A program made the position numbers and the translations under genes. 64,000 bases of DNA, taken from assembly GCF_000701685.1 (NCBI RefSeq), contig NZ_JNJO01000003.1:1-64000 (forward strand), given 5' to 3'. Below, piece after piece: positions 1 to 12,049 of this stretch (position 1 is the first letter of the stretch; each line of letters starts with the position of its first letter). A model generated the notes under the pieces. It was not told where the DNA came from. It saw nothing but the letters and a program-made list of their open reading frames with translations, and made no database searches. This DNA comes from Gemella sanguinis ATCC 700632 (GTDB lineage Bacteria; Bacillota; Bacilli; Staphylococcales; Gemellaceae).

Positions 1-325
1 CAGGACCAGCTACTCTGAAGAGATTAACCCAGTTACAAATAAGTGATGGATTATTTATACCTTCTTGTAAAGCAATGTCATTGTACGAGAGTTCACTTGT
101 TAAGTATAATTCTACAACAAATATCTTTTTTTCGAAAGAATATTCTTTATTTTTTCTTGAGCGAAGTAAGGCTTCATCTCCATATTTCTTATATTTAGAT
201 ACCCAAACTTTAATATTAGCCTCTGATTTAATACCATACTTTTTCGCTAATGGTATGTATCCAATACCTCCATTTAGGTACTCTAATACTACTTTCTTTT
301 TTAATTCAAATGTATATTTTGACAT
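1..325 (-). CDS. IS3-family transposase OrfA, partial
   Basis: Minus-strand reading from ATG at 325-323 gives a protein starting MSKYTFELKKKVVLEYL and containing YGIKSEANIKVWVSKYKKYG and later INNPSLICNWVNLF. These are two helix-turn-helix modules typical of IS150/IS3 OrfA, which binds the element ends and is normally fused to the DDE integrase OrfB by -1 frameshifting. About 108 codons are visible before the window edge and no internal stop is seen. The ribosome binding site GGAGG lies inside the hairpin at 331-380. The family call is secure from the motifs; the group assignment is by memory of family sequence. Confidence 0.85.
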   Translation of the reverse strand, partial: MSKYTFELKKKVVLEYLNGGIGYIPLAKKYGIKSEANIKVWVSKYKKYGDEALLRSRKNKEYSFEKKIFVVELYLTSELSYNDIALQEGINNPSLICNWVNLFRVAGP

Positions 326-330
326 AAAAA

Positions 331-380
331 TACCGACCTCCAAAAAGTTAGATTTTTGGTCTAACTTTTTGGGGTCGGTA
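331..380 (-). promoter_or_regulatory. IS terminal hairpin sequestering the transposase ribosome binding site
   Basis: On the minus strand, arms of 21 and 22 nucleotides pair completely except for one bulged base, around a loop of about 7 nt. The 3' arm contains GGAGG, the orfA ribosome binding site, so an RNA that starts outside the IS would fold and hide it. This fits the known way insertion sequences block expression from read-through transcription. The hairpin is seen directly; its function here is inference. Confidence 0.65.
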
Positions 381-406
381 CATTTTTTGGGTTGGTTATT
401 TTCCTA

Positions 407-1036
407 TTATTTAGTATAAACTGAAACTCGTTCTTTAATATTAGAGTTTGCTTCGATAATGTCTAATAGTGCACTAGCATAATCTGCATAACTAACATAA
501 CTAACGCCTTCTTCGTTAGTAGTGAAGATTTCACCAGCTATACCATAGTTATTAGTTTTAGGGCCATCTTCAACAAAGTCAGCTGCTGGACTGACAAATG
601 TCCAATTAATATTTTCTTTTGTACGAAGTAAATCAAGTTCATCTGCTTGAGCTTTTGCTAAAGGTTTAAATACCTCAGGAAATTCTGGTGATTCAAATAG
701 TTTAGTAGCTTTTGAACTATCTAAGTATAAACTACCAGCCCCACCAACGATAAGTAAGTGAGTGTTTGTTCCATCTAATATTTCTGAGAAGTGCTCGACT
801 GTTTTAGAATGTAAAGATAATGTATCTGGATTAAATGTCCCAAATGCACTAACTACTACGTCAAAACCTGTTAAATCTGCTTTAGTTAACTCAAATAGAT
901 CTTTGTTAATTACTTTAGATGCTTCTGATTTATTTTCTGAACGTACTACTGCTGTTACATCATGATTTCTTTCAATTGCTTCTTTAACTATTAATTTACC
1001 TGCTTTTCCATTTGCTCCAATTACTGCTATTTTCAT
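407..1036 (-). CDS. NAD(P)-binding oxidoreductase, NmrA/atypical SDR type
   Basis: The 209-residue protein starts MKIAVIGANGKAGKLIVKEA, a Rossmann fold with the GxxGxxG dinucleotide motif near residues 7-13. It has the length and layout of single-domain NmrA-like/SDR_a5 proteins that act as NAD(P)H-dependent redox enzymes or redox sensors in the cytoplasm. The ATG at 1036 is chosen because GGAGGA lies 7 bases upstream; an in-frame TTG 15 bases earlier would overlap that site. Substrate is unknown. In related bacteria such genes are often under HxlR-type quinone-responsive repressors, and a palindrome upstream fits, but no regulator gene is adjacent. Confidence 0.8.
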   Translation of the reverse strand: MKIAVIGANGKAGKLIVKEAIERNHDVTAVVRSENKSEASKVINKDLFELTKADLTGFDVVVSAFGTFNPDTLSLHSKTVEHFSEILDGTNTHLLIVGGAGSLYLDSSKATKLFESPEFPEVFKPLAKAQADELDLLRTKENINWTFVSPAADFVEDGPKTNNYGIAGEIFTTNEEGVSYVSYADYASALLDIIEANSNIKERVSVYTK

Positions 1037-1112
1037 TTTTAATTCCTCCAAAATTGTTTGTTGTTATACTAATATAATAGCATGTATAAAAAATAAGAAA
1101 AGTACGCACTTT

Positions 1113-1151
1113 TTTGTATCATAGTTACTTTAAAGTAACATTTGTATCATA
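1113..1151 (-). promoter_or_regulatory. candidate operator upstream of the oxidoreductase gene
   Basis: A perfect 16-bp palindrome GTTACTTTAAAGTAAC (1124-1139) is flanked by two identical 11-bp direct repeats TTTGTATCATA (1113-1123 and 1141-1151). It lies about 90 bases upstream of the oxidoreductase start. The TACTT/AAGTA half-sites resemble sites bound by HxlR-family repressors such as YodB. The symmetry is seen; the regulator is inferred. Confidence 0.45.
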
Positions 1152-1231
1152 TAGCGTAATTTTTAAAGAAAAAAATAAAAGAAATGTATAACTTGAAAAT
1201 AAGATACATTTCTTTAATGATTAATATTTAA

Positions 1232-1591
1232 CTATCTCTGTTTAGTACTTTTTTTATTTTTACGAAGTTGTCTTACTAGAAAACCAATACCTTGCCCACA
1301 CAAACTAAAGAAAATATATAATAAACCATAAATTAGAATATCAAAATTTAATATAATTAGACAAGATAATAGATAAAAGGCTCCTACGAGAATAGAAAAT
1401 AAGTAGCTAAAATCCTCTTTATTATATGCATATAGAAAAGATATAATGAAATTGACAATTGGATATAAGAAAAGAAGTAACCATATTATCATTCCTGATC
1501 TATTTGATATAAAATAAGAACACAGAGGAAGTATTATAAATAAAAAGAAAGAAAAAATTAAATAGGGTACTTTTTCTAAAAACTTCTTCAT
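1232..1591 (-). CDS. small multi-spanning membrane protein, unknown function
   Basis: 119 residues with about four hydrophobic segments (roughly 8-29, 34-56, 62-82 and 84-105) and a basic tail ending RKNKKSTKQR, so the C-terminus is probably cytoplasmic. A strong AGGAGG precedes ATG at 1591 with normal spacing. I recognise no family motif. It stands alone between the oxidoreductase and the CsbD cluster. Confidence 0.7.
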   Translation of the reverse strand: MKKFLEKVPYLIFSFFLFIILPLCSYFISNRSGMIIWLLLFLYPIVNFIISFLYAYNKEDFSYLFSILVGAFYLLSCLIILNFDILIYGLLYIFFSLCGQGIGFLVRQLRKNKKSTKQR

Positions 1592-1789
1592 TGTCTGCCT
1601 CCTAATATAGTGTTATTCTATCATATATCTTTTTAAAAAACAAATTGTGTGCCGCTTTAAAATAGGTTTCTAGATTTCTAAAAATAGGTAAAGGATATCT
1701 TGAAAAATAGTGAAGTTATATGAGCTAGTTAATTGACTAAAATGAACTTGTAGTATAAAGTGTTATTATTAAAAAATGGAGGTATGACT

Positions 1790-1975
1790 ATGTCATTTGA
1801 AGATAAAATTAATCAAGCTAAAGATTCAATAAAAGAAGGTTTAGAAAAAATTACTGGAGATGAGAATATCGAATTAGAAAATGTAGTATCAAAAGTAAAA
1901 GAAGTAGCTGAAGATTCAAAAGGTAATGTTGAAGGTGCTATTGATACCGTAAAAAACTTATTTAAAAAAGATTAA
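1790..1975 (+). CDS. CsbD-family stress protein, copy 1
   Basis: 61 residues starting [20 protein letters not shown], the CsbD pattern of a short hydrophilic helical protein with the KxGxxKxxTGD segment (here [10 protein letters not shown]). CsbD proteins accumulate in general stress in Bacilli; the molecular role is unknown. ATG at 1790 is taken because GGAGG ends 7 bases before it; ATG at 1784 would be too close. The linker and C-terminal [24 protein letters not shown] closely parallel the copy at 2687, so the two are paralogues. Confidence 0.85.
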
Positions 1976-1989
1976 TTTTTAAAATTATA

Positions 1990-2046
1990 AAAAAGCTCTA
2001 TATTTTTTGTGGTTGTTAAATAACTATAAAGATTATAGAGCTTTTT
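1990..2046 (+). terminator. terminator after CsbD copy 1
   Basis: AAAAAGCTCTATA pairs with TATAGAGCTTTTT across a roughly 30-base AT-rich loop, ending in a T-run. The 3' arm resembles the one after CsbD copy 2, suggesting terminator and gene duplicated together. Confidence 0.65.
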
Positions 2047-2477
2047 ATTGTTGAATGTATAAGAAATAAATAGTTATATATGATAAGTGAAATCAATTAA
2101 CGTTGAAAGTTTTAGAAAAAAAAATTTAAGTTTATTATTAAATTTAATATATTCTATAAATTAGATGTATTTTTTATTATTTGAATATACAAATATATAT
2201 TTATTTTATAAAGGTTTATTAATTAGCAAGAAGAAGCTATAAGTAAATTAAAAAATAATAATATTTAATTGAAATTATTTCTATAACTATTTTAGGAAAT
2301 TTCAAGGATTATAAGATAATATAAGGATATAGAATATTATCACATCAATATTGCGAGCGTTTTCGTTGATTAATACCGTTTATTCATATATAGTAATAAT
2401 TAGATAGATATTTGTATGATATTTAAAAATTGGGACAAACAAAGTAAATATCTAAATAATTATAGGGAGGTGTTATT
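2047..2477. other. AT-rich intergenic stretch upstream of the second CsbD transcription unit
   Basis: No supportable gene. The only GC-rich patch is TTGCGAGCGTTTTCGTTG near 2351-2368. It matches the catabolite-responsive element pattern with about two mismatches and sits inside an imperfect inverted repeat (ATCAA/TTGAT). It may be an operator for the genes at 2478-2890. No clear -35/-10 pair was found. Confidence 0.3.
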
Positions 2478-2651
2478 ATGACATTAGAAGGTGGAGTTAG
2501 TGTACCGGCAGAAGAAAAGATAAATGTATCTAAAGCTGTAGAAGAAGTTGAAGATAAAAAAACAAATGAAGAGATTAATAAAATCGCCGATGAGACTAAG
2601 GAAGTATTAAAAGAGATTGGTGAAAATAAAGAAAATAATTTATTACAATAA
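2478..2651 (+). CDS. 57-residue charged hypothetical protein, probably co-transcribed with CsbD copy 2
   Basis: ATG at 2478 follows GGGAGG with good spacing and the frame runs 57 codons to TAA at 2649. The protein is Lys/Glu-rich (about 40 percent charged), with segments such as [20 protein letters not shown] and [14 protein letters not shown], so it is predicted helical or disordered. It is not CsbD itself but has a similar composition. The next CsbD gene follows after 35 bases with its own AGGAGG, so the two probably share an mRNA. No family recognised. Confidence 0.65.
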
Positions 2652-2686
2652 CCAAGAATAATTTAATTAAATTAGGAGGTAAAATT

Positions 2687-2890
2687 ATGTCATTAGAAGA
2701 AAAATTAGAACAAGTAAAAGGTTCAGTTAAAGAAGGTCTTGGAAAATTAACTGGAGATGAAAAAACAGAAAAAGAAGGAGCTGCAGAAAAAGTAGTTTCT
2801 AAAGTAAAAGAAGTAGCAAAAGATGCGAAAGATGCTGTAGAAGGTGCAGTTGATGGTGTAAAAAAAGCTATAAAAAAAGATGAAGAGTAA
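2687..2890 (+). CDS. CsbD-family stress protein, copy 2
   Basis: 67 residues, [20 protein letters not shown] followed by [11 protein letters not shown], the best match here to the CsbD core. The C-terminal half ([20 protein letters not shown]) is an Ala/Lys amphipathic helix. AGGAGG lies 8 bases before ATG. It is about 6 residues longer than copy 1, mostly through an EGAAEK insert. Cytoplasmic stress-induced protein by family; mechanism unknown. Confidence 0.88.
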
Positions 2891-2930
2891 AATTACTAAA
2901 ATAAATAATTGATTTTCCTTTCATTTAATT

Positions 2931-2986
2931 AAGCTCTATCAATCTTTTAACAAGTAAAGCTGTTATAAAGATTATAGGGCTTTTTT
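2931..2986 (+). terminator. terminator after CsbD copy 2
   Basis: AAGCTCTAT-C-AATCTTT pairs with AAAGATT-ATAGGGCTT, followed by a T-run. Its 3' arm (ATAAAGATTATAGGGC) is nearly the same as that of the first CsbD terminator. Confidence 0.6.
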
Positions 2987-3074
2987 ATTGTTTTGAATTA
3001 GTTTGCAATGAGAATAAGTTCACAAAATACGTAAATTTCTAATGTGTGGGTAAATATGGGACAAAGCGCAAAAT

Positions 3075-3122
3075 AAAAAGCCTTAAACGTAGATACTTTA
3101 AGGCTTTTCTAACTTTATTATT
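3075..3122. repeat. attL: direct copy of the rpmG terminator region
   Basis: Identical to 10517-10564 except C at 3113 versus T at 10555. The first 38 bases are identical, and weaker similarity continues upstream (GCAAAA-AAAAAG). It contains the hairpin AAAAGCCTTAAA...TTTAAGGCTTTT but no rpmG gene, as expected for the distal att site. Confidence 0.85.
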
Positions 3123-3298
3123 AATTATCTTGCACATATCAAAGGGATTAAGGTAATTTATTAATTAAGATATTAATAAGATAGAGTTATATACTAGTTT
3201 TTTTACGTTTTTTAAAAATTCTGTATTATATATGCTGTTATATTGACGATTTTTTTATCTATAGAAAGTAAAAAAGTTTCTTGAAGTATTCTTTTAAG

Positions 3299-3694
3299 TT
3301 AAATGTATTTACTATAAATTAGTGAGTAACTAGGATTAAATTCATTTTTTTCTAAATCTTCATCTTTTTTCTTTTGTTCAATTAAATATAGAATGCAGTT
3401 GAGGTCGTGTCTTATAAAAATTGGAAATGGAATTTTATTAGGTACTGTATATTCAAAGTCGTTAAACTCATTCTTTTCCACCTTCACATTGACATTTAAT
3501 ATAACCTTCTCATTGACATTTAATTTATCATTATTATTTAACTGTTTGGTCGCCTCCAAGTTTATTTTAACATATTTTTTTGATAGTTTTATTACTTTTA
3601 AAGTATAGACTATCTTTGCTTTCCAACGTTGATCTGTATAAGTAAATATTTCATCAGGATAACTTCTTAGTAATTCTTCTTTAGTTATACACAC
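3299..3694 (-). CDS. hypothetical protein in the islet
   Basis: 131 residues from a GTG start at 3694; GGAG lies about 11 bases upstream and no nearer ATG is in frame. The sequence is hydrophilic with a central stretch of alternating hydrophobic residues (KVILNVNVKVEK) suggesting beta strands. No signal peptide or membrane segment, and no family recognised. It lies 89 bases downstream of the GNAT gene on the same strand and could belong to its transcript. Start choice is uncertain. Confidence 0.55.
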   Translation of the reverse strand: MCITKEELLRSYPDEIFTYTDQRWKAKIVYTLKVIKLSKKYVKINLEATKQLNNNDKLNVNEKVILNVNVKVEKNEFNDFEYTVPNKIPFPIFIRHDLNCILYLIEQKKKDEDLEKNEFNPSYSLIYSKYI

Positions 3695-3783
3695 TAAACA
3701 TACATCTCCTTTTTTTAGTAGTTATTGTTTATATTTTTTACTGACTAACAACACAATGCACTTCATATAGTTATGATGAAGGG

Positions 3784-4386
3784 TTATTGTATTTTCATTA
3801 TCAGTACATTTAATTCATTGTCACCACGATAATTTTCTATTAAATTAAATCCAAACTCTTTATAAAAATCCAAAAGTTTTTCACTATCTTCACACTCTAC
3901 CCATACATATTTCACATTTACAACCTTAACAATATCTACTAGCATTTTATATGCTATTGCTAATAATTTATTTCCTGTTACTTCTTGTTTTATGCTATCA
4001 TCTAAATTATAATTTTTTCCAAGCTGTCCAATTAGATAACTATTAATCTCTACGAAATTTTCCTCTCTCCTACCATATTTCAATAATTTTTTCTTTTGAG
4101 TATTTGATAATTTCTCAAAATTCTTTTTAGTCATCTTTAATGGTCTATTTGCAAAAGAAAAATAACCAACAAGTACTGGTTTTTCTAACTCTACAAATGC
4201 CAAGTGCGTGGTTGCCCAAGCCATATTTTCAAAGTTAATAGCTTTATTATGTAAAAAGCACTCCACATCATTTTGTTCGTTTGTTTCATGATTTGGAATG
4301 CTTTTAAATTCTTTTAATATATTTTGTACATCCTCTTCAGAGAATGTATTTAATAAATCTTGAAGTCCGACTACATTAATCTCCAT
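3784..4386 (-). CDS. GNAT-fold N-acetyltransferase, candidate toxin of a two-gene module
   Basis: 200 residues. The C-terminal part has the GNAT order: strand EINSYLIGQLGKNY, a degenerate acetyl-CoA loop QEVTGNKLLAIAY near residues 134-146, strand VKYVWVECED, then the SEKLLDFYKEFGFNLI segment typical of GNAT motif B. The N-terminal 70 residues are not recognised. GNAT toxins such as TacT acetylate aminoacyl-tRNA and pair with a small upstream antitoxin. Here a 60-residue gene lies immediately upstream, overlapping by one base (TAATG), on a mobile islet and behind a strong promoter. GNAT membership is fairly sure; toxin activity is inference, and an ordinary acetyltransferase remains possible. 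Confidence 0.7.
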   Translation of the reverse strand: MEINVVGLQDLLNTFSEEDVQNILKEFKSIPNHETNEQNDVECFLHNKAINFENMAWATTHLAFVELEKPVLVGYFSFANRPLKMTKKNFEKLSNTQKKKLLKYGRREENFVEINSYLIGQLGKNYNLDDSIKQEVTGNKLLAIAYKMLVDIVKVVNVKYVWVECEDSEKLLDFYKEFGFNLIENYRGDNELNVLIMKIQ

Positions 4387-4568
4387 TAATTTTCCTTTCT
4401 AGTAGCTGGTTTTTTAAAAAGATTCACTATATCTTGACTACTTCTTACTATTTTAATATTAGAAATATCCTCTAAGTTTGGTTTTTTAATATTTTCAAGA
4501 GCATTCAAAAGGCTATCAGTAGATTTTCTATTGAATTTTAGAGTAGTATCAAAACTTTTTGTTGCCAT
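4386..4568 (-). CDS. 60-residue protein coupled to the GNAT gene, candidate antitoxin
   Basis: Starts MATKSFDTTLKFNRKSTDSL and ends KKPATRKEN. ATG at 4568 is chosen because AGGAGGTG lies at ideal distance; the longer frame upstream has no ribosome binding site and runs into the promoter. A short strand (SFDTTLKFN) followed by a helix could be a DNA-binding N-terminus, but it does not fit a ribbon-helix-helix pattern well. Its TAA shares a base with the ATG of the acetyltransferase, so translation is coupled. No named family recognised. Confidence 0.65.
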   Translation of the reverse strand: MATKSFDTTLKFNRKSTDSLLNALENIKKPNLEDISNIKIVRSSQDIVNLFKKPATRKEN

Positions 4569-4607
4569 CAGAACGCACCTCCTCTTTCTCTTTTTCTTTC
4601 TATTATT

Positions 4608-4637
4608 ATTATACCTGTTTATCTTGTTATGAGTCAA
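4608..4637 (-). promoter_or_regulatory. strong sigma-A promoter for the GNAT module
   Basis: Minus strand: TTGACT (4637-4632), an 18-base spacer, then a consensus TATAAT (4613-4608), about 40 bases before the ATG at 4568. It is one of the best promoter matches in the window. Confidence 0.7.
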
Positions 4638-4702
4638 TATAAAAATATGTCCCAAGGCAAATTCATTTCCCGGAAATAACCCGATAAAAGGAGTGTTTTT
4701 TT

Positions 4703-4783
4703 ATGAAATATAAAGTTGTTATTGTAATCACTTTGTATATGATATTATTCCTACATTTTCCAACATTTATATGGAGAATTTGA
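4703..4783 (+). CDS. 26-residue hydrophobic peptide
   Basis: ATG at 4703 follows AAAAGGAGTG by about 9 bases and the frame ends at TGA 4781. The peptide starts MKYKVVIVITLYMILFLHF: two lysines, then an unbroken hydrophobic stretch of about 20 residues, enough for one membrane span. It is transcribed opposite to the GNAT module and just upstream of a candidate small RNA. Size and build resemble type I toxins or small membrane regulators, but it lacks the charged C-terminal tail of the Fst family. A chance ORF is possible. Confidence 0.4.
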   Translation: MKYKVVIVITLYMILFLHFPTFIWRI

Positions 4784-4872
4784 CAAGTGCTGACAAATTG
4801 TTAAAGCTATTTTAAGCTTTGAATTTTACTCATAAGGTAATTAGCCTAACACTATATAGAATGCGCTCAGAA

Positions 4873-4901
4873 TTGAAAATACAAGCTAATTCTGGTATAA
4901 T
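4873..4901 (+). promoter_or_regulatory. strong promoter without a downstream gene
   Basis: TTGAAA (4873-4878), 17-base spacer, TATAAT (4896-4901). Transcription would start near 4908, and a strong hairpin terminator follows at 4922-4959. No ORF lies between. Confidence 0.6.
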
Positions 4902-4907
4902 AGATAT

Positions 4908-4960
4908 AGCTTTCTTATAAGAAAAACAAGCCGTGTTTTGTGGTACATGGCTTGTTTTTA
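4908..4960 (+). ncRNA. candidate ~50-nt small RNA
   Basis: Inferred only from a near-consensus promoter immediately followed by a 14-bp-stem terminator. The transcript would be little more than the terminator hairpin with a short 5' tail. It could be a small regulator or a decoy transcript that limits convergent transcription of the gene at 4967-5557. There is no homology evidence. Confidence 0.35.
4922..4959. terminator. bidirectional terminator
   Basis: AAAAACAAGCCGTG pairs with CATGGCTTGTTTTT (one G-T pair), with A/T runs on both sides. It serves the minus-strand gene ending at 4967 and any plus-strand RNA from the promoter at 4873. Confidence 0.75.
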
Positions 4961-4966
4961 ATTTTA

Positions 4967-5557
4967 TTAATTATATTTACAGAATGTTCTAACTAATTCC
5001 TGACATGCTGTTTCTAGTTGCTTCTGAGCATAAGTAAAAGCATAAGGAGAGTAGGGGGCGCATTCACTTTCTATTAGTGGGATACTTTCAATTTCTCCAA
5101 GGTAAGAATTTACTTTCGCTTTAAGTGGCTCGATAGTCTGAGTTTTTTCTTTACCATCTTTCTGAAGTTCAGTTAGCTTCTTGTTTGCATACTTAACTGC
5201 ATGATTAATAACTTCATCCAGGAGTGAAGATTTTCTAGAGAGAAACTCATTTTCTTCTTTTGTAAAGAACTCTCTTAATTTAGACAATTCCATTATTAAT
5301 TTTTTCTTTTGATCATTAAATTCTTTTTGGATATCCTCCTTTGTTGCTCTTAAGGTATTAATCTTAGTTATAGCTTCGGTCTCTTTAGTCTTTAGATCGA
5401 CCTTATCACTAATTGAAAGAGTAGCGCTATTTTTACTTTGAATAGTTTCTAATTCTTTAGCGGCATTATCTATTCTGTTATCTATCTCCTTAATCAATTC
5501 ATCATTGTTAGCTTCTAGCTGTTCTAGTTCTGTAATTTTATTTTGAATTCTTTCCAT
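4967..5557 (-). CDS. coiled-coil protein of unknown function in the islet
   Basis: 196 residues, strongly charged, with heptad-like Leu/Ile spacing through about residues 1-150 (MERIQNKITELEQLEANNDE onward), predicting a long coiled coil. A short Cys-containing C-terminal part ends ELVRTFCKYN. No signal or membrane segment. AGGAGG stands before ATG at 5557 with good spacing. It lies 12 bases downstream of the 66-residue gene and probably shares its mRNA. No family recognised. Confidence 0.65.
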   Translation of the reverse strand: MERIQNKITELEQLEANNDELIKEIDNRIDNAAKELETIQSKNSATLSISDKVDLKTKETEAITKINTLRATKEDIQKEFNDQKKKLIMELSKLREFFTKEENEFLSRKSSLLDEVINHAVKYANKKLTELQKDGKEKTQTIEPLKAKVNSYLGEIESIPLIESECAPYSPYAFTYAQKQLETACQELVRTFCKYN

Positions 5558-5569
5558 AATATAAACCTC

Positions 5570-5770
5570 CTATTTATTTCTAATGTTGTAACTATTTGCT
5601 ATGTCAGTAATACTTTCAGACTTGTTGCTTTGATGTAATGAAGCAATATCATTTCTTAACTCTCTGATTTCTTCTAGAGCAATATCTTTGCTTTTAGAAG
5701 AAAAGTCCTCGTCTTTAAATTCAGAAAGTGTAGCTATTATCTTATCATCTTCAATTCCAACGTCTAGCAT
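5570..5770 (-). CDS. 66-residue hypothetical protein
   Basis: Starts MLDVGIEDDKIIATLSEFKD; acidic N-terminal half, then a helical stretch IALEEIRELRNDIASLHQSN. AGAAGG precedes ATG at 5770 with short spacing. It is the first gene of a minus-strand pair with 4967-5557 and diverges from the decayed XRE regulator at 5983, the position usually taken by genes under such a regulator. Function unknown. Confidence 0.55.
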   Translation of the reverse strand: MLDVGIEDDKIIATLSEFKDEDFSSKSKDIALEEIRELRNDIASLHQSNKSESITDIANSYNIRNK

Positions 5771-5982
5771 CCTTCTTATTAATTTATCTAATATACATTA
5801 TTTTTATTTAGTTATTATATTAATATGATTTTCTTCAACAGTTTTAATTTATTATTATATGCTATGTGTACAGTTAAATTAGTTTATAAAAAATACTTAA
5901 TACTATTTCAAAATTAATTTAATAAATATTGTTTTATAATATGGTTTGTGATATCATTTATTATATAAGGAGAGGAGATTTC

Positions 5983-6584
5983 ATGAGTAATATAAATAAT
6001 TTCGGAAGAAATTTATACAAATAAAGAAAACTAAAAAACTTAAGTAAGATGGATCTAGGTATAGAGTTAGGTTTATATGGTTCTGATATAATCATGTATG
6101 AAACAAACCAGCGATAACCTAAAAAAGATTGTATAGAAGAGATTGCTCTTTTTCAATGTATCAACAGATGTTTTGTTAAAAATAGAAATTTTGAATAATT
6201 GTAAAATTAGAGAATTAAATAATTCTAATAATAATATATTAGAGGAAGAGTTCGCTCTTAATAATAAAGGGGATCATGGAATATTAGATGGTAATATTGG
6301 TAATTTATTAGATGATGATAAGCATACTGCATTTAAAATAGTTGTAAGTTTACTTGGGAAGCCTTACGCTAATATCACGAAATATAGATGAATTACAAGA
6401 AAAAATTACATTTTATCAAAATAAAGAAAAATTAATACAAAAAATTGATAAAATATAAGAAAAGTATAGTTTATCTAATATCGATTCAGATGAATTAAAA
6501 TATGATTTAGATAGATTACAAACATTAATATTAAATAATAACTACATTATTAAAAAATATTTACTAGAGAATTGGGAAATGTAA
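5983..6584 (+). pseudogene. decayed XRE-family (Cro/CI-type) regulator
   Basis: From ATG at 5983 (AGGAG upstream) the frame reads like the start of an XRE helix-turn-helix: NFGRNLYK, stop, then RKLKNLSKMDLGIELGLYG and DIIMYETNQR. In-frame TAA codons fall at 6022 and 6115. After a frame change near 6143 the expected FNVSTDVLLKIEI (end of the HTH domain) appears. A further frame change near 6385 gives DELQEKITFYQNKEKLIQ, a coiled tail, ending at TAA 6582 with one more internal stop. Two nonsense codons in the HTH plus two frame shifts mean the repressor is dead. Identity rests on the pattern R-x-L-(x)n-Y-E followed by F-x-V-S-x-D. Confidence 0.75.
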
Positions 6585-6767
6585 GTTAATATACAAACCA
6601 CATAATATAGCCCCTGTAACAAAGTACGGTAATGTTTATTTTGAATTTAATGAGGGGAGTGGATTATATAGTCACAAAAAAATAATAAATATTTGGAAGT
6701 TAATCCAAATACGAGATTTCCAGATTATTTAAAAAATAAAAATCCAATTAATTTTATTACAGAATAG
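6585..6767 (+). pseudogene. remnant of a second decayed gene
   Basis: Two coding-like pieces in different frames: YKPHNIAPVTKYGNVYFEFN (6592 onward) and YLEVNPNTRFPDYLKNKNPI ending at TAG 6765. They are separated by an A-run where the frame is lost. The stretches have normal amino-acid variety, unlike random AT-rich DNA. The parent family is not recognised; it could also be the tail of the XRE gene. Confidence 0.45.
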
Positions 6768-6795
6768 GGAATTTTATATTGAGAGGAAAAATGAA

Positions 6796-7812
6796 ATGGA
6801 GAATTTAACGGGGAATGATGTACTAATACTTCATTATATAGCAAAACGTAGTAAAGCTTCAGAATTATATCAAACATTTTGGAAAAATGACTACTTTAAT
6901 GATAATGAAAAATCACTTAATAATTTATTAGATAATGGCTATATAGAAATGAGGTATGATGAAAGAATATCATTAAATAAACTTAAAGTTGAAGAATTAA
7001 AGGAAATATTAGTTAAAGGTGAATTAAAAGTAACAGGTAAAAAGAATGATTTGATAGAGAGAATTATTGAGGAATGTGATAAGAAATATTATCAAAGGTA
7101 TCTCGAATTAGAAAGATATATAACTGATAAAGGAGAAAGTCTTCTATCTAGAACAAAATTTGTTTTAGTTGCTCACAGCAACAATATTGCTTATCCTGTG
7201 GATATTTACAACTTTTATCTTAGTAATCAAAACTCAGATGAATTAGATCTTATATGTGACTTTATTGAATGTAAAGTGAGGTTTGATAAAGAGACTAAAG
7301 AAATAAGTGATAATTCTTATTTGTATCACCAATTAAGTCAAGTATCTAATATTTATAATAATCAAGATAAGCAACTGTATTATTTATTAAAATCATGTTA
7401 TGAGTTCTTATCCACGGATACTCCATATCTTCGTTTAATAAACATAAAGGAATTTAAAAACTATGTAAATAGATTAAGTTTCCACACAAAAGATATAAGT
7501 CTTTTATTACAATCAAATCAAGACTTAAAAGAAAATATGGAATCATATATAAACAGTTTAGAAAAAACTTATTATAATAATTACTTTAATAATGATGAAA
7601 TAAAAAACCTGATTATTGCGTTTTGCTTAAAAAATTCCTATGAAGTTGATAGAATTATAGTGAATATTTATAAAAGAAATCAAGCTGAAGGTAAATTTAA
7701 TGGTAGTATAAGTGAGGAAATACAACAAGAGAATGTTAGAATTGAGTTTGAAGAAGATAAAAAAGAAAAAATAGGTTTTATGGATAAGATAAAATCATGG
7801 TTTAATGGCTAA
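6796..7812 (+). CDS. SAP-domain protein of unknown function (islet cargo)
   Basis: 338 residues. Residues about 58-95 carry a SAP motif (LNKLKVEELKEILVKGELKV followed by GKKNDLIERI), a small helix-extended-loop-helix fold usually binding DNA. The N-terminal 55 residues look like a short helical domain; residues about 100-270 are helix-rich with Tyr/Asn-rich stretches; the C-terminus is acidic then basic, ending MDKIKSWFNG, which could be an amphipathic membrane-touching helix. GAGAGG lies 9 bases before the ATG. The next gene starts 28 bases on with its own AAGGAG, so this looks like a two-gene operon. SAP is fairly sure; the function is unknown. Confidence 0.7.
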   Translation: MENLTGNDVLILHYIAKRSKASELYQTFWKNDYFNDNEKSLNNLLDNGYIEMRYDERISLNKLKVEELKEILVKGELKVTGKKNDLIERIIEECDKKYYQRYLELERYITDKGESLLSRTKFVLVAHSNNIAYPVDIYNFYLSNQNSDELDLICDFIECKVRFDKETKEISDNSYLYHQLSQVSNIYNNQDKQLYYLLKSCYEFLSTDTPYLRLINIKEFKNYVNRLSFHTKDISLLLQSNQDLKENMESYINSLEKTYYNNYFNNDEIKNLIIAFCLKNSYEVDRIIVNIYKRNQAEGKFNGSISEEIQQENVRIEFEEDKKEKIGFMDKIKSWFNG

Positions 7813-7840
7813 TAAAATTATACAATAAAGGAGTGATTAA

Positions 7841-8986
7841 ATGGAAAGATTATATAATGTGATTTTAGAAATTATATCTGATCTAATGATGGTTATATTT
7901 GTTTTGGTTAGTATGCTTGTAGTATTACTAGTCGTTAAAAATTTTGTTATAAGAGTATTCGAAAAAATTAAACAATTTAAAAATAAAAATGTGATTATTA
8001 TATTTGTGATAGCTAATATAGTTTTACTTATGCTTTTGTATAGTAAAAAAATATTGAAATTTCTAGGAATGGAAACAGAAAGTTCTATGAAGGAGATTGC
8101 AGAATTTTTGAATTTTCCGTACTTAGAGCAAGTATCATATTTAATTTTTTATTTTATTGAAATAATTTGTATTATTATATATTTTATATTTTGTAAAGTA
8201 ATTGCAGAAATAATATTTAAGAGAATAAATCTTAAATATAAAATATCTGAAAGCAAATCTAGACACTATGTTTTAATCTTTTTTATAGTCTTTTTTATAA
8301 TCTTTTTTATAATCTTGGTTAAAATCTTAGGTATGCTACTAACCAATTACGTTTATAAAAAACTTGCATGGTTATGGTTAATTTTTCTATTTAGGTTTTT
8401 ATTTATTGTTTTATTTAATTTTATATTTTTGTTAATATGTTTATTAGTTACTACTGCAAAAAAAACAAAAAATTATAAAAAAGATGACAAATCATTGTCT
8501 GAAATCAAGAATAAATTTTCAAAAATAATAACTGATGGAGCTAATGGGGCAAGTATCGATAAATTGTGTATTGATCTTGAAAGTATTTCTGATAAAGATA
8601 TATATAAAGTTTTAAAAAGTTTTAATACTCCGTCATTATTAGGTTTAAAATATATTTTGCAACAAGATAAAGAAAGAATAAAATTTAAGATATGGGAAAA
8701 AATGAAATCTATAGTTAAAGTTACAGCAATTGCTCCAGTTCTTAAACTTTTAAAAGATTCAAAGATATTTAATTCTAATGAGTTTATTAATTTTATTGAA
8801 TCCCAAAAAAATAATATTAAAATAATGGTTGCTGTGACAATTATATTAATATGTATGTTGTTAATAGATAATTATATAAGTAAAAATAAAGTACGAAGAA
8901 TTATATCGCCTAATTATTTATTATTGTTGATAGACGACATTCTCGAGTTGAAAAAAAGAGAGAAAAAATTGAAGAAATATATTTAA
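7841..8986 (+). CDS. multi-spanning membrane protein, partner of the SAP protein
   Basis: 381 residues. About five to six hydrophobic segments fall in the first 210 residues (near 10-35, 48-68, 100-128, 145-170, 178-205). A soluble segment of about 110 residues follows (KKDDKSLSEIKNKFSKIITD onward), then one more span near 327-345 and a basic tail. AAGGAG precedes the ATG. The gene is exceptionally AT-rich and contains a 12-bp tandem repeat (8279-8314) within a membrane span. No family recognised. A soluble domain between membrane segments, paired with a putative DNA-binding protein on a mobile islet, is a layout seen in some defence systems, but that is speculation. Confidence 0.65.
   Translation: MERLYNVILEIISDLMMVIFVLVSMLVVLLVVKNFVIRVFEKIKQFKNKNVIIIFVIANIVLLMLLYSKKILKFLGMETESSMKEIAEFLNFPYLEQVSYLIFYFIEIICIIIYFIFCKVIAEIIFKRINLKYKISESKSRHYVLIFFIVFFIIFFIILVKILGMLLTNYVYKKLAWLWLIFLFRFLFIVLFNFIFLLICLLVTTAKKTKNYKKDDKSLSEIKNKFSKIITDGANGASIDKLCIDLESISDKDIYKVLKSFNTPSLLGLKYILQQDKERIKFKIWEKMKSIVKVTAIAPVLKLLKDSKIFNSNEFINFIESQKNNIKIMVAVTIILICMLLIDNYISKNKVRRIISPNYLLLLIDDILELKKREKKLKKYI
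8279..8314 (+). repeat. three in-frame 12-bp tandem units inside the membrane-protein gene
   Basis: TTTTTTATAGTC then two copies of TTTTTTATAATC. The units are four codons long and encode Phe/Ile-rich turns of a membrane helix, so gain or loss keeps the frame. Confidence 0.7.
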
Positions 8987-9322
8987 TAAAAATTATTGAA
9001 AAAATAGGTAAGAGAGAAAAATGACAAGTAAGGGATAGGTGGAAAATAAAAAAGCACCAGTAAAAAATACTAGTACTGAAAAATGATAAACAAGTTTGAT
9101 ATTATAGTAACTCTATTATATCATATAAATGGTGTAATAACAAGGTTTGTAAGCTTACTTAAAATCGATACCCATTTAAACGGTGTATAAGCACGCTGTT
9201 TATCTTGGGGTAATTATATTAAAAATTATTTTAGACGTCTTCACGTTTGAAATACGAGGTGTTTTATAGAATAAATTTATTAATTTCTTTGATATGCGCT
9301 AGATAGAAAGGAAATGATAAAA
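8987..9322. other. leader region of the integrase gene, possibly with decayed coding DNA
   Basis: No supportable gene with a ribosome binding site. A 35-codon frame from 9083 (containing ITRFVSLLKIDTHLNGV) is followed, after one TAA, by ARCLSWGNYIKNYFRRLHV to about 9250. It may be a broken small gene such as an excisionase. The two GGTGTA-AA-AA-like segments near 9131 and 9183 could be integrase arm sites. Confidence 0.3.
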
Positions 9323-10480
9323 ATGATAAAAATGATAAAACAATATACTAAAAAATCTAATGGAAAAAACTATTATATGGTATATATTTATCTTGGAAAA
9401 GATGAGGTTACTAGAAAAGATAGGTATACTACTAGACGTGGCTTTAAAACTAGAAAAGAAGCTTTACTATGTGAAGCAAAAATTAAAACTGAAATAGCTA
9501 ATAATGGCTTACTGAATACTGATGTTACAACATTTAAAGAAATATATGAGTTATGGTATGAAGGATATCAACATACTATAAAAGAAAGTACATTACTTGT
9601 TAATCAACATATATTTAATTTATTACTTGATAAAATGGGAAATATGCAATTGAAAAAGATAACTCTACCTTATTGCCAAAAAGTGATAAATGTGTACAGT
9701 AAAACTTTTTCTCTGGCTGTTCTCAAAAAAATAAAGATCTATGGAAGCATGATTTTAGACTATGCTGTAAAAATGAAGGTTATTTATACTAACCCTATGA
9801 AAGATGTCTTATTACCTAAGAAAAATGATGATATAACTTCAGATGATAAGGATACATACTATTCTAAAGAAGAATTAAGAGAATTCCTTACATTAGTTGA
9901 GAATGAGCAGGATATAAAGCTAACTGCAATGTTTAGGGTGTTGGCTTATACTGGTATTCGTAAGGGTGAATTACAGGCTCTAGAATGGTCTGATATTGAT
10001 TTTACCAACAATATAATTACTGTTAACAAGACTTTAGCATTGAATACAGATAAAAAAGTAGTAGTGCAAACTCCTAAGAGTAAAAGCAGTATTAGAAATA
10101 TTAGTATAGATGAACAAACTGCTAATATTCTGAAACGTTGGAAAATTAAGCAAAAAGAGAAATTCATAATGGTAGGCACACGGGTAAAGAAGTATCAACC
10201 TTGTTTTACTGAAGAGGTATCAAATTCATATTTATATCTTAACTTCATGAATACCAATTCGAAGCGCATATGTAAGAAGAATGATTTTAAACAAATTAAA
10301 GTTCATGGTTTCAGACACACACATTGTAGCTTACTGTTTGAAAGTGGGTTTACCATTCAAGAAGTTCAAGATAGGTTAGGTCATTCTGACTTAAAAACAA
10401 CAATGAGTATTTATGCTCACGCAACTGAAAAACAAAGAGATAATATGGCTGATAAGTTTGCTAAATTTATGGCTTTGTAA
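9323..10480 (+). CDS. int: tyrosine recombinase (islet integrase)
   Basis: About 385 residues, usual for Tn916/phage-type integrases. Order: N-terminal arm-binding segment (KNYYMVYIYLGKDEVTRKDR), core-binding domain around TTFKEIYELWYEGYQHTIKE, then the catalytic domain with the active-site Arg in AYTGIRKGEL, HGFRHTHCSLLFESG (H-x-x-R), LGHSDLKTT (His) and the nucleophile Tyr in MSIYAHAT. All catalytic residues are present, so the enzyme is probably active. Three ATGs are spaced 9 bases apart (9314, 9323, 9332); AAAGGA at 9307-9312 is too close to the first and best placed for 9323. The gene ends 36 bases before the att repeat beside rpmG, as expected for the enzyme that inserted the islet. 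Confidence 0.92.
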   Translation: MIKMIKQYTKKSNGKNYYMVYIYLGKDEVTRKDRYTTRRGFKTRKEALLCEAKIKTEIANNGLLNTDVTTFKEIYELWYEGYQHTIKESTLLVNQHIFNLLLDKMGNMQLKKITLPYCQKVINVYSKTFSLAVLKKIKIYGSMILDYAVKMKVIYTNPMKDVLLPKKNDDITSDDKDTYYSKEELREFLTLVENEQDIKLTAMFRVLAYTGIRKGELQALEWSDIDFTNNIITVNKTLALNTDKKVVVQTPKSKSSIRNISIDEQTANILKRWKIKQKEKFIMVGTRVKKYQPCFTEEVSNSYLYLNFMNTNSKRICKKNDFKQIKVHGFRHTHCSLLFESGFTIQEVQDRLGHSDLKTTMSIYAHATEKQRDNMADKFAKFMAL

Positions 10481-10516
10481 CAGTTACATTGTCAAAACAT
10501 TGTCAAACGGCAAAAC

Positions 10517-10551
10517 AAAAAGCCTTAAACGTAGATACTTTAAGGCTTTTC
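10517..10551 (-). terminator. rpmG terminator within attR
   Basis: AAAAAGCCTTAAA pairs with TTTAAGGCTTTT around a short loop; on the minus strand it ends in a T-run right after rpmG. It may also stop integrase transcription on the plus strand. Confidence 0.75.
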
Positions 10552-10564
10552 TAATTTTATTATT
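10517..10564. repeat. attR: rpmG terminator and stop region
   Basis: Forty-eight bases matching 3075-3122 with one mismatch. It includes the rpmG stop codon (10560-10562) and its hairpin terminator, so integration restores rpmG and duplicates its terminator. Confidence 0.85.
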
Positions 10565-10709
10565 TAGTTTCTCTGTGTAAAGTCACTTTTTTTAATCTTG
10601 GACAGTATTTTTTAAGTTCAATACGGTCTGGATTATTTCTTTTGTTCTTTTTAGTAATGTAGTTTCTATCACCACATTCAGTACAAGCTAATGTTACATT
10701 TACGCGCAT
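10560..10709 (-). CDS. rpmG: 50S ribosomal protein L33
   Basis: 49 residues starting [18 protein letters not shown] and ending VTLHRETK, an unmistakable bacterial L33, a component of the large ribosomal subunit near the E site. Three cysteines (9, 12, 36) are present; the fourth zinc-ribbon position is Leu39. AGGAGG stands before the ATG. A TATAAT with TGG just upstream lies about 60 bases before the start on the minus strand. Its 3' end is the integration site of the islet. Confidence 0.95.
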
Positions 10710-11088
10710 TAATATAACCTCCTATAAAATTTAATCTTAACAACTTTTTCATACAACAAAATATATTATACCACTAGTCAATAGATATTTCCAGTGAAAA
10801 GTTAAAGTTTTTTTACTTTTTTTAATGGTTATTAATAATAGTTTATTTTATAATCAGCAACAATATTTGTAATATATAAGTTAGTAAATAACATAATAAC
10901 AGTTATATAGTTATTTTTAATGTTATGATATGATGTAACTATAGAAGAATATAATAGATATGAAGTAATGTTGCCTATAGAGAAGAAGATAGTAAAAAAA
11001 TAATATAGTTAAAAATATGATAAATGAAAACTTTAATTAAATTATGAGAAATTAGATTGATGTGATATAATGAAGATAGGTGATTATA
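10710..11088. other. AT-rich intergenic region between rpmG and a membrane-protein gene
   Basis: It contains the rpmG leader and promoter (TATAAT on the minus strand near 10770) and a weak extended -10 (TGATATAAT, ending at 11071) on the plus strand. Apart from these I see no gene or RNA structure. Confidence 0.4.
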
Positions 11089-11661
11089 ATGAAGAATCAA
11101 AATAAAAAAATAATAAAAGAAAGAGAGTTAGATAAATTATTTAGAAAAATTTTTGATAATAAAATAATGAAAAATATAAAAGATGATATAACATTTATAT
11201 TATTATCTTTGGGAGTAGGTAGTATAAGTTATTTTTATTTAATAAATTATCTACAAAAAAATATAGTTAATAAGGTTAAAGATTTTATGGATAATATTGA
11301 TACTGTTAGTGCTGTATCCTATAATAATACTGGCTATTTAATAGCAGGATTTATGATTATAATATTATCGATATTATTTTTAAATAAATCAAGAAGAACA
11401 AGATATTTAATTTTATTTTTTATAGCTTCCATATTTTTTGGGGGGATAAGTATATTTGCTATATTAATATTAGGAGAAAAATTATTTTTTTCAATACTTT
11501 GTTTATTATCAATTAGTTTATTAATATATGTATTAATAAACGCTTTAAAAAACATATATGGGTGGTTGAAGATTGATAAAAGTAAAGATAATCAAATAGA
11601 TGTAGCCAAACTTACTTTCATATGGGGAGTTATAATTTTTCTTTATAATTTATTAAAATAA
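11089..11661 (+). CDS. membrane protein of unknown function
   Basis: 190 residues from ATG 11089 (AGG 8 bases upstream; an in-frame GTG at 11080 overlaps that site). A basic N-terminal 35 residues precede a span near 38-58, an extracellular-like loop, then spans near 84-103, 108-126, 130-152 and a last one near 172-188. No family recognised. The next gene starts 4 bases after its stop, so the two are probably co-expressed. Confidence 0.6.
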   Translation: MKNQNKKIIKERELDKLFRKIFDNKIMKNIKDDITFILLSLGVGSISYFYLINYLQKNIVNKVKDFMDNIDTVSAVSYNNTGYLIAGFMIIILSILFLNKSRRTRYLILFFIASIFFGGISIFAILILGEKLFFSILCLLSISLLIYVLINALKNIYGWLKIDKSKDNQIDVAKLTFIWGVIIFLYNLLK

Positions 11662-11665
11662 GAAA

Positions 11666-12049
11666 ATGATAAGAAAAGGATATCAAATAGTAGAAATAAT
11701 ATTAGTGATAATATCCCTAGTGTTTCTATTTAAATTATATAATTACAAACAATATTTAACTGAAAAAATAATAGAGAAAAAATTTGGATTAATAAAAGAG
11801 GCGATTTTAATCGTAAAAGAGCCATATTATTTTCATTATTTAATATGTGGAATAGGAATATTAATAATGCTGATGGGTTTTATTTATTATTGTATAAGAT
11901 ATGAACAAGATAGTGGATTAAGTCTAGTCATTATAGTTATATTTAATATAATATTAACAATAATAGTGTTGTGGGTTTTTTGGAGTCCTATATTGACTAC
12001 ATTGTGTATAATTGGTGTAATAGGGTTACTGGCAATAAAAGGTATATGA
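11666..12049 (+). CDS. small membrane protein of unknown function
   Basis: 127 residues with three predicted spans (near 8-24, 58-78, 87-125, the last perhaps two). The ribosome binding site is poor (AATAAG), consistent with translational coupling to the gene ending 4 bases before. Very AT-rich and not recognised. Confidence 0.55.
   Translation: MIRKGYQIVEIILVIISLVFLFKLYNYKQYLTEKIIEKKFGLIKEAILIVKEPYYFHYLICGIGILIMLMGFIYYCIRYEQDSGLSLVIIVIFNIILTIIVLWVFWSPILTTLCIIGVIGLLAIKGI

Follow-up and report, generated by a model that had tools for sequence, protein, structure and literature searches.

A gene in a mobile-element remnant of Gemella sanguinis ATCC 700632 encodes a 338-residue protein that, as judged from profile comparisons, belongs to a large, uncharacterised family. 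The protein has a SAP domain, which appears to be built into the wing of a winged helix, and in many family members carried by mobile elements the gene lies between a CI/XRE repressor and an integrase. The best reading of this SAP protein is that of an exclusion or regulatory protein of a lysogeny module. The membrane protein encoded directly downstream would be an addition specific to this lineage and not a partner that the SAP protein always requires, and a conserved two-gene system need no longer be claimed. What had been an isolated gene pair becomes a testable family, distinguished by the SAP-in-wing arrangement and often found in the superinfection-exclusion slot of Gram-positive phages. 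The stretch analysed (the window) comprises the first 64,000 nucleotides of one contig, and its relevant features are collected in Table 1.

Table 1. Features of the element remnant and its integration site (window positions; residue numbers refer to the encoded protein)
Feature	Position	Strand	Evidence or description
Left copy of direct repeat, probable att, 69 bp	3062-3130	.	90% identical to 10504-10572
ORF in element	3299-3694	-	No family matches
Acetyltransferase-like phage/satellite gene	3784-4386	-	phrog_1758, E=2e-38
Small phage-type ORF	4386-4655	-	phrog_6339, E=1e-10
ORF	4967-5557	-	Weak matches of coiled-coil type alone
Small ORF	5570-5770	-	No assigned function
Decayed stretch	5983-6600	+	Many stops; possible Cro/CI-type repressor remnant (tentative)
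SAP protein, 338 aa	6796-7812	+	Predicted winged helix with SAP in wing, TPR-like body, disordered linker, C-terminal helix
SAP domain, residues 60-92	6973-7071	+	PF02037, E=1.3e-8; 34.7 bits (Pfam threshold 23.9)
Orphan polytopic membrane protein, 381 aa	7841-8986	+	Six hydrophobic stretches; soluble part 200-327
Tyrosine integrase of element	9314-10480	+	PF00589, E=7e-26
Right repeat copy	10504-10572	.	rpmG end and terminator-like hairpin
rpmG (ribosomal protein L33), integration target	10560-10709	-	Translation

The element remnant, about 7.5 kb in size, occupies the 3' terminus of rpmG. The region encoding L33 (10500-10825) is matched in all nine genomes of the genus, own included. The rpmG 3' end is known to serve the tyrosine integrases of streptococcal ICEs and IMEs as a target (PMC4701971, PMC5357655). 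A tRNA or tmRNA gene was considered as an integration target, and none was found within the window. Several PICI hallmarks are present, namely terminal direct repeats within a conserved gene and an integrase at one end, abutting the right repeat copy. Neither an intact primase/D5 gene nor a divergent repressor ORF was detected in 3062-10572; because the replication module and the divergent repressor are absent, the element is at most a remnant and not an intact PICI. No structural genes were recognised in it either. With no primase or structural gene and a stop-filled stretch upstream of the SAP gene, the islet is therefore best described, from its sequence, as a decayed satellite- or prophage-like remnant. 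A six-frame comparison of the stop-filled stretch with an XRE profile gave a best domain i-E of 8e-4, which is weak. The product of the acetyltransferase-like gene is 49% identical (tblastn) to that of the gene ending the record of Streptococcus satellite phage Javan54.

The left end of the element rests on the repeat. Similarity to att-side DNA of other Gemella covers 3013-3130 and extends beyond the left repeat, which suggests accretion onto the end of an older element. Rearrangement of the left flank in comparison with other Gemella leaves the left copy without confirmation from an empty site, and with the similarity already starting at 3013 this end may reflect accretion. Genes at 396-1648 of the left flank (1-3062) are found beyond the transaldolase-like gene in other Gemella. 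On the right, two small polytopic membrane ORFs (11080-12049) separate rpmG from that transaldolase-like gene. The two genes are nearly adjacent in six other Gemella loci (L113, L114, L116-L119), so the 11080-12049 segment looks like an insertion outside the element.

A fuller phage-satellite-like element occupies the same rpmG site in another Gemella genome (G005; locus L128, 1269-10313). It carries an integrase, a DUF3800 cargo gene, an HTH regulator and a D5/DUF5906 primase, with an att repeat at 10240-10313. It shares 81% DNA identity with the window over the integrase and rpmG, and the two integrase translations are 86% identical.

Both reading frames of the pair, which lie on the same strand, are far longer than expected by chance. 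When 5800-9313 was shuffled 1000 times at first order, the longest ORFs had a median length of 60, a 99th percentile of 115 and a maximum of 135 codons, compared to 338 and 381 codons here; both genes are thus considered real. Shine-Dalgarno-like sequences (GAGAGG and AAAGGAG) precede the SAP gene and the membrane gene, respectively. The initial annotation, which described two genes 28 bases apart with strong ribosome binding sites, is confirmed in both respects, and the pair, which it called the largest cargo of the islet, is indeed the largest intact cargo by length. Co-transcription of the two genes in the window strain is likely, given the 28-base gap. Promoter-like sites in the region show no excess (47, compared to a shuffle mean of 42).

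The AlphaFold model of the SAP protein, computed with 16 sequences, has a mean pLDDT of 75.7, with block means of 91-98 across residues 41-120 and 93-98 across residues 51-100. The modelled head consists of helices 6-17, 23-32 and 37-46, strand 50-54, the SAP helices, strand 105-109 and helix 111-119. The SAP domain appears to be inserted into the wing of the winged helix, as strands 50-54 and 105-109 are the sole confident strands of the model. The SAP domain claimed earlier scores above the Pfam cut-off, and together with the predicted winged helix it supports the earlier reading of a putative DNA-binding protein. The head is followed by a helical body up to residue 297, TPR-like by profile matches to designed TPRs, then by a disordered linker and a low-confidence helix (residues 319-336). 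An amphipathic C-terminus had also been proposed; a helix is modelled there, but its amphipathicity is not significant against same-letter shuffles (p=0.15, and p=0.44 for the tail of the Gemella bergeri homologue). The window SAP protein has no transmembrane (TM) segment within its own chain.

A fold search of the PDB with the SAP model gave no Foldseek match at E<=0.001. The SAP-bearing region of FAN1 aligns with model residues 1-122 with a Z-score of 5.9 and an rmsd of 4.1 over 117 residues, where a Z-score below 8 may reflect a common arrangement; we treat this model-based resemblance as a lead. FAN1 carries a VRR-NUC nuclease domain. Unlike FAN1, the 338-residue protein has no detectable nuclease domain at E<=1.

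The second protein had been described as a membrane protein with a soluble domain, in agreement with its six hydrophobic stretches and a 128-residue, Lys/Arg-rich soluble part. By the positive-inside rule, this part is probably on the cytoplasmic side; the basic C-terminal tail would then be on the opposite side, contrary to that rule. The protein has no match at E<=0.1 in Pfam, NCBIfam, PHROGs or PADLOC, nothing at E<=1 among PDB sequences, and no relative among viral contigs, phages and plasmids. In scans of 157 genomes from the order and 398 from the class, its only credible match is in its own genome. Matches in four other genomes (G059, G178, G209 and G481; E-values from 1e-5 to 3e-3) were rejected as relatives, because they are partial (98-142 query residues) at 20-31% identity and the best contains two internal stops. 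Modelled alone, the membrane protein reached a mean pLDDT of 58; the fold search used the SAP model. The earlier phrase "two unrecognised genes" is not confirmed, since the SAP protein sits in a large family.

The nearest relative of the SAP protein (48% identity) is encoded by Gemella bergeri ATCC 700627, and the second (33%) by a Gemella MAG. The G. bergeri gene is open and occupies the same rpmG site; an integrase fragment of 99 codons is 194 bases away, and no membrane gene separates the two. These observations bear on the idea that the pair consists of ordinary cargo genes that are in decay and no longer functional. The decay of the element (5983-6600) and the lack of a replication module would fit such an idea; however, both long frames are intact in the window and the G. 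bergeri homologue is intact as well, beside a broken integrase. Differences in the SAP gene by codon position (0.41/0.31/0.53) were also counted for retention, and we consider loss of function improbable.

To place the SAP protein in its family, we built a profile from nine relatives, which matches 37 of the order's 157 genomes, the source genome of the window counted, with short or stop-containing matches among them. Relatives are encoded at 31 IMG/VR loci, on plasmids of Staphylococcus and Apilactobacillus, and by Streptococcus phage Javan617, where the gene order is repressor, ORF, SAP gene, integrase. Single SAP proteins used as queries found no relative in the viral-contig set, nor did a single query in the genome-contig set; the three-row alignment A3 recovered two SAP relatives, both already found. 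Proteins named "SAP domain-containing" from prophages, from satellites and from plasmids of staphylococci, some of them in phrog_10777, are homologous across the winged-helix/SAP head and, in closer members, across the body too. Some of these contain TM stretches in the same chain, and none has the membrane neighbour of the window. The window SAP protein itself gave no match to phrog_10777 at E<=1e-3. No paper on this family was found in the open-licence PMC literature; one SAP gene is mentioned in a staphylococcal island (PMC6400870).

To examine gene neighbourhoods, 74 SAP loci were clustered at 80%, yielding 52 representatives. Loci L015 and L046-L074 were left out of the 74, because the same places are already present as L006, L012-L013/L075-L101. 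A polytopic gene (at least three TM stretches) is next downstream on the same strand in the window alone among the 52 representatives. A conserved pair of SAP and membrane genes was therefore rejected: the two genes are apart in most genomes, the SAP family being matched in 37 of 157 genomes and the membrane protein credibly in its own only, and G. bergeri has the SAP gene without the membrane gene. The two-gene system proposed in the initial annotation, which had itself named separation of the genes in most genomes as grounds for giving it up, is not supported.

The following counts come from mechanically chosen ORFs and two small custom-built profiles (int and xre), with some loci cut by contig ends. 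An XRE/CI gene is present within four ORFs upstream in 14 of the 52 representatives, and an integrase within four ORFs downstream in 11, a count that leaves serine integrases, such as that after L044, outside. One or the other is present in 18 representatives and both in seven. TM stretches inside the SAP protein occur in 8 of these 18 slot-type representatives, compared to 4 of the other 34 (Fisher p=0.014, obtained with a crude predictor on related sequences). They form an N-terminal pair in L016, L017, L028 and L081 and are C-terminal in L013 and L019; L011 and L022 each have one stretch in mid-chain. These in-chain TM segments of several relatives make it plausible that the family is coupled to the membrane. 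Long homologues without a nearby XRE gene or integrase also exist, for example L083-L092; such settings, together with the plasmid copies, indicate that the family is not exclusively linked to lysogeny.

The interval between integrase and repressor also houses superinfection-exclusion genes in phages of streptococci and lactococci. PMC3952083 gives the gene order of phage TP-J34 as integrase, ltp (superinfection exclusion) and a metalloproteinase/cI-like gene. PMC7693887 reports that some genes of this interval in lactococcal P335 phages protect against other phages, and that in Dub35A all genes of the interval are expressed and none confers resistance. By analogy, anti-phage action of the SAP protein, which had been suggested earlier, would be plausible from its position. 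We tentatively favour, at somewhat less than an even chance, a role as lysogeny-module cargo directed against competing phage or plasmid DNA, with a DNA-binding head, a partner-docking body and a membrane-proximal location. The winged-helix/SAP head would bind DNA and the helical body would dock a partner, while the protein would work at or near the membrane, for which the six-TM protein encoded 28 bases downstream may supply an anchor or effector. The likely outcome would be superinfection exclusion or abortive infection. Several points stand against this proposal. There was no match for either protein in PADLOC-DB 2.0.0 at E<=1, nor any family there for the 16 members of alignment A2 at E<=0.01; copies exist on plasmids and in settings lacking a nearby XRE gene or integrase; the genes in this interval of lactococcal phage Dub35A gave no resistance; and the protein has neither a TM segment of its own nor a significantly amphipathic tail.

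The chief rival is a regulator of the element, in which a DNA-binding and helical sensor protein would control repressor, integrase or cargo by a logic like that of RRNPP/arbitrium systems, the membrane gene being unrelated cargo. RRNPP/arbitrium regulators combine an HTH and TPRs with a cognate peptide, and the predicted winged helix and TPR-like body of the window protein, encoded in a lysogeny module, could fit this layout. Foldseek matches to AimR and PrgX point the same way very weakly; at E-values of 0.2-1.1, among many TPR-type proteins, they are insignificant. The 28-base gap is too small for a peptide ORF, a number of relatives have TM stretches, and plasmid copies L007-L010 show no XRE match within four ORFs upstream. 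Overall, we regard a regulator of this kind as rather unlikely.

Ranked third is a DNA-membrane tether that anchors element or plasmid DNA for maintenance or segregation. The TM stretches in part of the family, combined with a DNA-binding head, would suit such a function, as would the occurrence of family members on staphylococcal plasmids. Of six records of plasmids or plasmid-like DNA, two have a ParA gene no more than about 5 kb away. However, an integrated element would presumably need no partition of its own, and the copy in the window sits on the chromosome without any TM segment; we consider a tether quite unlikely. Least probable of all is a cofactor for integration or excision by the adjoining integrase: the 11 representatives with an integrase downstream suggest such a link, but most plasmid and chromosomal copies lack a neighbouring integrase, and the adjoining integrases are of both tyrosine and serine types (L044).

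With respect to known exclusion systems, the favoured role in excluding competing DNA can be compared with two groups of proteins. PdpSau of an S. aureus prophage and AbiP of Lactococcus are described in PMC10127798 as membrane-anchored phage-resistance proteins with a proposed nucleic-acid-binding part. They have an OB-fold and an N-terminal TM helix, whereas the window protein has a predicted winged helix/SAP head and helices, with no N-terminal TM stretch. The pdpSau gene sits in a lysis module, and our results contain no homology or common fold between either PdpSau or AbiP and the SAP protein. The second group, Ltp, Sie2009 and SieF7/2AB, is membrane-linked and encoded between the integrase and repressor genes of the lysogeny module (PMC3952083, PMC7693887). 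Ltp and Sie2009 are small membrane-associated proteins, while SieF7/2AB is a two-gene set of a membrane protein and a metalloprotease-like protein (PMC7693887). The passages of the two papers that describe Ltp and the Sie proteins mention no SAP or winged-helix domain.

A broader and more doubtful proposal is that SAP-in-wing proteins constitute an unnamed phage-exclusion family of Firmicute prophages, satellites and plasmids, which would hold DNA at the membrane and to which an anchor would have been added repeatedly. The anchor would be an N-terminal TM pair, a C-terminal segment or, in the window, a separate six-TM partner gene. If true, phage exclusion would explain many genes of prophages, satellites and plasmids of staphylococci that are annotated only as "SAP domain-containing".

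Two further groups of loci are of interest. Short SAP-profile matches of 188-192 residues (L102 at 4738-5310, without a Pfam match, L103-L106 and L108) share a similar chromosomal setting, where genes of roughly 180 and 860-890 codons precede most of them. In the Gemella MAG (L013), the repressor-integrase slot contains, together with the SAP relative, a DUF3644 protein with an EC042_2821-like restriction-endonuclease domain (3760-4740), a possible defence gene.
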